Made by a program: the position numbers and the translations under genes. Below are positions 2,797 through 4,907 of a stretch of 64,000 nt of DNA, in pieces. Origin of the DNA: an uncultured Pelagibacteraceae bacterium. Its GTDB lineage: Bacteria > Pseudomonadota > Alphaproteobacteria > Pelagibacterales > Pelagibacteraceae. The stretch spans positions 1-64,000 of the forward strand of contig CACHRX010000003.1 of NCBI GenBank assembly GCA_902582385.1. Direction: 5' to 3'. The notes under the pieces are model-generated. The model saw only the letters and a list, made by a program, of their open reading frames with translations. It had not been told where the DNA came from and did no database searches. Numbering within the stretch: position 1 is the first letter of the stretch; each line of letters opens with the position of its first letter.

Positions 2797-3798
2797 CTAA
2801 TAATCCTTTACCATTTTAACCAAATAATCCATCATTTGAGGGTCTGTTTCTGGCAAAACTCCATGACCCAAATTAAATATATAAGGATGATCTTTAAAAA
2901 TATCTAAATATTTTTTTGCCTCTTTTTTCAAATGCTCCTTACTGGTTAATAAAATTTTAGGATCCATCCCGCCTTGAATTGGTAGTTTTATATTTTTTTG
3001 AATAAAATTTGGATCAACATTATAATCTATACAAATAGCATCTGGTTTTACAATTTCACAATATTTTTTATAATCTTTTATCTCTCGTGGAAAACATATT
3101 ACGGGAACATTTAAAGATTTGGTATATTCTACTAAAGACAAAGTAGGATTATAAATATACTCGTTTAAATCTTTACTATTTATTAATCCAGCCCAGCTGT
3201 CAAAAATTTGTATTATTTCTGCACCACTATCAACTTGATTTTTGATATGAATTTTTAAAAATTTATCTAAAACATTTAGAATCTTTTTTAATAATACTTC
3301 ACTTTCAAAAAAATTATCAACTAACTTTAATTTAGGTGATTGTTTATTAATTATGTAAACTAACAATGTCCAGGGTGCACCAATAAATCCTATTGTGCTT
3401 TTATTATTTGTTAGTTTGTGGCTACTTACCAATTTTATTAATTTATAAATTGAATCAATTTTTTTAGTAAAATCAAAATCATTTAGGTTAAGAACTTTTT
3501 CTAAACTAAACTCTCCAAGTAAAGGGCCAAAATTTTTTTTAAATTCAACATGCTGATTCAATCCATAAGGCACCATTAATATATCAGAAAAAATTATAGC
3601 CGCATCTAAATCAAATCTTTTTAATGGTTGAAGAGTTATTTTAGTAGATAGGTTTTCGTTTAAACATAGTTTTATAAAATCTGGATTTTTTTTTCTTATT
3701 TCTCTAAATTCAGGTAAATACCTACCTGCTTGCCTCATAATCCATATAGGATTTATATTTGTTTTTTTATTAATTATTGTTTCCTCTATTGGTGTCAT
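2797..3798 (-). CDS. hemE: Uroporphyrinogen decarboxylase
   Basis: PIWIMRQAGRYLPEFREIR, DAAIIFSDILMVPYGL, FNLGHGVLPETDP. Confidence 0.98.
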   Translation of the reverse strand: MTPIEETIINKKTNINPIWIMRQAGRYLPEFREIRKKNPDFIKLCLNENLSTKITLQPLKRFDLDAAIIFSDILMVPYGLNQHVEFKKNFGPLLGEFSLEKVLNLNDFDFTKKIDSIYKLIKLVSSHKLTNNKSTIGFIGAPWTLLVYIINKQSPKLKLVDNFFESEVLLKKILNVLDKFLKIHIKNQVDSGAEIIQIFDSWAGLINSKDLNEYIYNPTLSLVEYTKSLNVPVICFPREIKDYKKYCEIVKPDAICIDYNVDPNFIQKNIKLPIQGGMDPKILLTSKEHLKKEAKKYLDIFKDHPYIFNLGHGVLPETDPQMMDYLVKMVKDY

Positions 3799-4082
3799 AT
3801 TAATATTTAAATATAATTAGTTGTAGTATTAATATAGCCTGTGAATAACGGTGATTTAATTTAGTAAACATTTTATAAACAAATTATCAACATTTAGAGC
3901 ATAAATTTTTCTTTAATATATAAGTAAAATTGAAGCTTATTAGTAAAATTATTAAATTCTTTAATAACTTTATACATATTTTTAGTAATGTTAATAAAAA
4001 CCATGTTTTACAACATAAATTTAAAAATGTTAAAATAATTAAATATGATTTAAATAATAAAAGGTTATTAACCATTTAATAC
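3799..4082. other. Candidate chromosomal replication origin (oriC)
   Basis: Very AT-rich gap between divergent hemE and ppsR (the known alphaproteobacterial hemE-linked oriC context). Perfect DnaA-box match TTATTCACA (minus strand, 3840-3848); one-mismatch matches TTATAAACA (3873-3881), TTATCAACA (3884-3892) and TTATACATA (3970-3978); TTAA-N7-TTAA (4039-4053). Confidence 0.6.
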
Positions 4083-4907
4083 ATGAGTAATACATATCAA
4101 ATTTACCTAATTTCTGATTCTACTGGTGAAACTTTAGATAGAATTTTTATAGCTATTAAAGCTCAATTTAAGAATATAAATTACAAAATTCACACATATT
4201 CATTTACAAGAACTGAAAATCAAATTTTAAAAATTTTATCTGACTCAGAAAAATCTACAAATTCTATAATTTTATATTCTATAGTTGATAATAATTTAGC
4301 CAAGTATTTAGCAAAAACAAGCAGTGAAAAGAAGATACCTTGTTTTGGTGTTTTGGGAGATTTAATATTAAGTTTTTCTAAACTTTTAAATCAAAAAGCA
4401 TCTCATCAACCAAGCGGACAATATGCATTAAACGAAGAGTACTATGATAGGATTGCTGCAATTCAATTTACTATGAATCATGATGATGGAAATTTAATTA
4501 AAGAAATTAACAAATCTGATATAATATTATTAGGTGTTAGCAGAACAAGCAAAACACCCACTGCAATCTATTTGGCTAACAAAGGCTTTAAAACATCTAA
4601 CATACCACTCGTAAATGAAAAATCTATTCCTGAAACTTTAAAAGAAAATCCAAAAATTGCTTGTGTGGTCGGCTTAAACACTGAGCCAGAACGTCTTGTT
4701 GATCTTAGAAAAAATAGAATGAGTACAATTAAAGAAAATGAAAATAAATCTTATACAGATATAGACAAAATTAAAAAAGAAGTAAATGAAGCTAAAAAAA
4801 CCTTTAAAAAATACAAGTGGCCAACGATAGATGTTACAAGAAAATCTGTAGAAGAGACTGCTGCATCAATAATTAAAATATACGAAATTTATAAAAAAAA
4901 TGGTTGA
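4083..4907 (+). CDS. ppsR: PPSR / DUF299 family kinase-pyrophosphorylase (pyruvate,phosphate dikinase regulator-like)
   Basis: YLISDSTGETLDRI, DIILLGVSRTSKTPTAIYLANKG motifs. Confidence 0.9.
   Translation: MSNTYQIYLISDSTGETLDRIFIAIKAQFKNINYKIHTYSFTRTENQILKILSDSEKSTNSIILYSIVDNNLAKYLAKTSSEKKIPCFGVLGDLILSFSKLLNQKASHQPSGQYALNEEYYDRIAAIQFTMNHDDGNLIKEINKSDIILLGVSRTSKTPTAIYLANKGFKTSNIPLVNEKSIPETLKENPKIACVVGLNTEPERLVDLRKNRMSTIKENENKSYTDIDKIKKEVNEAKKTFKKYKWPTIDVTRKSVEETAASIIKIYEIYKKNG

Follow-up and report, generated by a model that had tools for sequence, protein, structure and literature searches.

The chromosomal origins of Caulobacter crescentus (Cori) and Rickettsia prowazekii lie between hemE and a gene of the COG1806 (ppsR) family. 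CtrA sites are frequent but not universal in hemE–COG1806 origins, and members of the group without them have been listed (PMC1914354). A second point of reference is the basal unwinding system (BUS), defined by three or more NAN trios no further than 16 bp from a DnaA box, with 3'-GAT-5' the commonest trio and a spacer of about 4 bp (PMC8287927; PMC6669920). An incomplete literature search returned no description of the anatomy of a SAR11 origin, and DoriC may list a predicted one.

The window analysed here is a stretch of 64,000 nucleotides from a SAR11 (Pelagibacteraceae) draft genome (973,546 bases in 44 contigs, 82.6% completeness). We assign the oriC of this SAR11 chromosome to the hemE–ppsR gap of the window with a probability of about 0.94. 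The flanking genes are the same divergent pair as in Cori and the R. prowazekii oriC, and the gap shares with them an AT-rich composition and several DnaA boxes (PMC1914354), but at 284 bp it is shorter. hemE is located immediately upstream of ppsR in most sampled Alphaproteobacteria. The original prediction placed a hemE-linked origin in a very AT-rich non-coding gap of about 280 bp, where leftward genes (hemE/hemH/hemJ/rho) give way to rightward ones (ppsR-maf-aroE-coaE-dnaQ). The measured size and GC content (15.1%) agree with that description, as does the switch in gene direction; the flanking genes were assigned by Pfam, rho, hemJ and hemH are as described, and the gene called dnaQ is a dnaQ-type exonuclease that follows ppsR, maf, aroE and coaE in the rightward cluster. 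The origin assignment itself is supported by a skew flip, conserved boxes and the proximity of parS and parB in relatives. Location and type are those expected from Caulobacter and Rickettsia, and the base-level architecture (Table 1) is the new part.

Table 1. Features of the hemE–ppsR gap and its flanking genes (coordinates are those of the window)
Feature	Position	Strand	Sequence	Remarks
hemE, flanking gene	2797..3798	-		Pfam URO-D, E 1e-79
Probable oriC region, entire hemE–ppsR intergenic gap	3799..4082	.		15% GC; skew breakpoint in relatives
DnaA-trio array	3821..3835	+	5'-TTG TAG TAT TAA TAT-3'	Read 3'->5' away from the box; predicted first site of strand opening
4-nt spacer, trios to box	3836..3839	.	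AGCC	Distance from trio phase to box constant in the 107-gap profile
Perfect DnaA box, main box beside trios	3840..3848	-	TTATTCACA	Perfect in 52/107 gaps; <=1 mismatch to anchor in 79/107
Weak second co-oriented box-like element	3850..3858	-	GGTGATTTA (on plus strand)	SAR11 consensus yGgtgATTA; putative function
Three DnaA-box-like repeats, exact 11-bp phase	3862..3892	+		C conserved 0.94/0.90/0.87
Repeat 1	3862..3870	+	TAGTAAACA	
Repeat 2	3873..3881	+	TTATAAACA	
Repeat 3	3884..3892	+	TTATCAACA	
One-mismatch DnaA box	3970..3978	+	TTATACATA	Position -112/-113 in 48/110 gaps
One-mismatch DnaA box	3989..3997	-	TTATTAACA	Position -93/-94 in 93/110 gaps; conservation 1.28 vs 0.76 mean
Degenerate box	4065..4073	+	TTATTAACC	Intact (<=1 mismatch) at -17 in 72/110 gaps
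ppsR (COG1806/DUF299), flanking gene	4083..4907	+		PF03618 Kinase-PPPase

The location of this region and the conservation of its elements are established computationally, from box enrichment, conservation, a skew switch in relatives and linkage to parS. The gap contains one perfect DnaA box (TTATNCACA) and four with a single mismatch. Five boxes with at most one mismatch compare with a mean of 0.74 in dinucleotide-preserving shuffles of the gap, and none of the 1000 shuffles reaches five; the perfect box alone occurs in 2% of shuffled gaps (P = 0.02). No other 284-bp stretch of the window has so high a box density. Among 110 SAR11 gaps (261–289 bp) the mean is 4.61 boxes, against 0.90 after shuffling, and the boxes recur at fixed places. 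The perfect minus-strand box and three one-mismatch boxes (3873–3881, 3884–3892 and 3970–3978) named in the original prediction are all present; its list was short by one, the minus-strand box beginning at 3989. The conservation in relatives on which that prediction was to be judged is seen in more than 100 of them, where the places of the boxes are kept. A few relatives, such as L025 and L019, have no box within one mismatch at some of the conserved places. Box clusters elsewhere in the relatives (e.g. L075:2180 and L039:8320) were considered as competing candidates and rejected, being mostly intragenic and composed of one-mismatch boxes only.

The conserved core of the gap was defined with a profile anchored on the minus-strand box and drawn from 107 distinct SAR11 gaps. 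Read on the plus strand, it consists of trinucleotides ending in TAG-TAT, a 4-nt spacer, TGTGAATAA, the element yGgtgATTA and three box-like repeats phased at 11 bp. The T of the trios is found at -16, -13, -10 and -7 in 96–99% of the gaps, and the TAG/TAT phase is kept. The repeats are marked by a conserved C in DNA that contains 8% C. At the place of the second box, other Alphaproteobacteria carry CGGGGATTA. Conservation within the gap is lowest at about 3939–3968. Two further conserved blocks, at 3930–3938 (TTGAAGCTT-like) and 4005–4013 (TTTTACAA-like), are not DnaA boxes.

Judged by sequence, this core matches the BUS unwinding module of DnaA-trios and a DnaA box. The window fits the BUS rule with the trios TAG TAT TAA TAT, a 4-nt spacer and the box, and the arrangement is conserved in the 107 gaps. 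The NAN rule is readily satisfied by chance in AT-rich DNA, so the weight lies in the phase and distance conserved across relatives, which through shared descent are not mutually independent observations. The BUS of Bacillus subtilis and other bacteria is alike in having a box, a 4-nt spacer and a run of TAG (3'-GAT-5') trinucleotides with a central A in the same polarity. The SAR11 module differs in that its second co-oriented box is very degenerate, its spacer is not consistently GC-rich and one trio position often lacks the central A. In the E. coli oriC, low-affinity DnaA sites form direct repeats with an 11-bp phase that adjoin a strong box and the opening element. The SAR11 array is similar in placing weak 11-bp-phased sites beside a strong box and a candidate opening element, but it has only three sites, a different sequence and different flanking genes.

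Two divergent genes have their start regions in the gap, and the core lies only about 25–60 bp from the hemE start. The conserved elements could accordingly be read as divergent hemE and ppsR promoters at which DnaA regulates transcription. This explanation is extremely improbable given the arrangement in genus g9 (G009 and G022), where rho rather than hemE flanks the gap upstream of ppsR, as read from the sequence. The rho–ppsR gaps of both genomes keep the core, which outscores each of 200 shuffles. In both genomes the only hemE-like genes are located elsewhere (G009:C1:718121 and G022:C1:412402). Because the core persists where hemE has gone and rho is the neighbor, it is not a hemE promoter. 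A promoter function would also leave the skew switch and parS unexplained. Additional regulation of hemE or ppsR by DnaA is possible alongside an origin function. The remaining hemE-like gene of g9 is only ~31% identical and is perhaps a replacement or a paralog. The core also exceeds all 200 shuffles in G040 and in the distant Alphaproteobacteria G250 and G201, with a value of 0.005 in G246; in several other Alphaproteobacteria it is undetectable with the SAR11-trained matrix. In G040, hemE is divided between two frames (G040:C1:358209-359179), which reflects either a frameshift or a sequencing error.

Strand skew was analysed in six closed genomes of relatives; each was covered by 20 stretches, 20 kb long, that were spaced rather than tiled. 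Raw GC skew tracks gene direction in the window and in the relatives and is uninformative by itself, so a gene-strand correction was applied at fourfold-degenerate sites and the breakpoint was located by maximum likelihood. In six genomes, 58–64% of the sampled coding bases are directed away from the gap. In G026 (1,308,759 bp), G078 and G040, corrected T/A skew takes positive values on the ppsR side of the gap and negative values toward hemE; G040 belongs to another genus, so that the three skew-informative genomes span two genera. The flip falls between the stretches that flank the gap, and the best breakpoint, measured from the ppsR start, is at +0.6 kb in G026, +0.9 kb in G078 and -7.4 to 0 kb in G040. 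The original prediction had named the minimum of cumulative GC skew among its checks; a skew switch is found at the gap as this T/A flip in three relatives. Strand-corrected GC skew is too noisy to use and differs in sign between genomes. In the other three sampled genomes (G003, G063 and G009) the skew is too slight to be used. Within one SAR11 genus, T/A skew is strong in G026 and G078 and nearly absent in G003 and G063.

Many bacteria have their origin beside dnaA, which in closed relatives of the genus lies 63–65 kb from the gap on the hemE side, and some SAR11 genome alignments begin at dnaA (PMC12421898). An origin at that site, 64 kb away, with the gap merely DnaA-regulated, is nonetheless very unlikely. 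Moving the skew break to dnaA worsens the log-likelihood by 15.3 in G026, 17.4 in G078 and 25.3 in G040, and no perfect DnaA box occurs within 1.5 kb of dnaA in the four genomes checked. The position of parS also argues against it, since parS sits by the gap and not by dnaA. Each of the 11 closed relatives has a perfect or one-mismatch parS 7–20 kb from the gap, on the hemE side at 7.4–9.9 kb in the genus of the window and on the ppsR side at 16.7–19.5 kb in three other genera (four genomes), with parB ~1.5–2 kb beyond it. The partition locus has therefore changed sides of the origin between SAR11 genera. In the window's own assembly, which is incomplete (82.6%), parB and a clean parS are absent.

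Skew alone does not distinguish an origin from a terminus switch, and the DnaA and trio elements together with parS decide for an origin at the gap. The terminus could not be placed through dif, since a search with an E. coli-type consensus gave no match and P. ubique is reported to lack dif/Xer (PMC2731167). The least probable of the explanations considered is a datA-like role, in which the box cluster titrates DnaA near the origin but not at it. Several boxes, most of them weak, would suit such a site, but the combination of trios, a box and an adjoining AT-rich stretch is that of an opening module, and in two genomes the skew breakpoint lies within ~1 kb.

Its location and DnaA boxes place the SAR11 origin in the hemE–COG1806 (Cori) type, from which it differs by lacking CtrA control. 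In contrast to Cori and the Rickettsia oriC, it holds CtrA sites no more often than expected by chance, and every SAR11 protein falls below the cut-off of the CtrA model. A TTAA-N7-TTAA motif proposed earlier as a CtrA-like site is indeed present at 4039–4053. Its reading as a CtrA site fails and was rejected as chance: at least one such motif occurs in 30% of shuffled gaps, and the frequency is 0.28 per gap in both real and shuffled sequences, with no fixed place. The best SAR11 proteins scored 148 bits (response regulators) against a cut-off of 350, a comparison that is supportive only, the model being of the Rhodobacterales type. Pelagibacter has been reported to have no ctrA ortholog (PMC2877005). 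CtrA takes no part in this SAR11 origin.

By analogy with the homologous BUS mechanism, DnaA would bind the perfect box and, rightward of it, the weaker boxes (three phased at 11 bp, then the scattered ones). A DnaA filament would then extend leftward on the plus strand over the trinucleotide repeats. The AT-rich duplex beside hemE would open, the helicase would load and forks would depart in both directions.

Few cells on Earth outnumber those of SAR11, and growth estimates from metagenome coverage gradients require the position of the origin. Sequence fixes that position at a distance of 64 kb from dnaA, the gene at which some pipelines and alignments set the start, and the architecture described here provides a base-level hypothesis for origin function without CtrA. 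We consider the chances evenly balanced that SAR11 retains a stripped-down, CtrA-free ancestral core of the alphaproteobacterial origin, made up of trios, a 4-nt spacer, a DnaA box and a CGGGGATTA-like second box, that lies by ppsR class-wide and stays when hemE leaves. If this is true, these bacteria, the most abundant in the sea, would depend on DnaA and the 11-bp array of weak boxes to time initiation.
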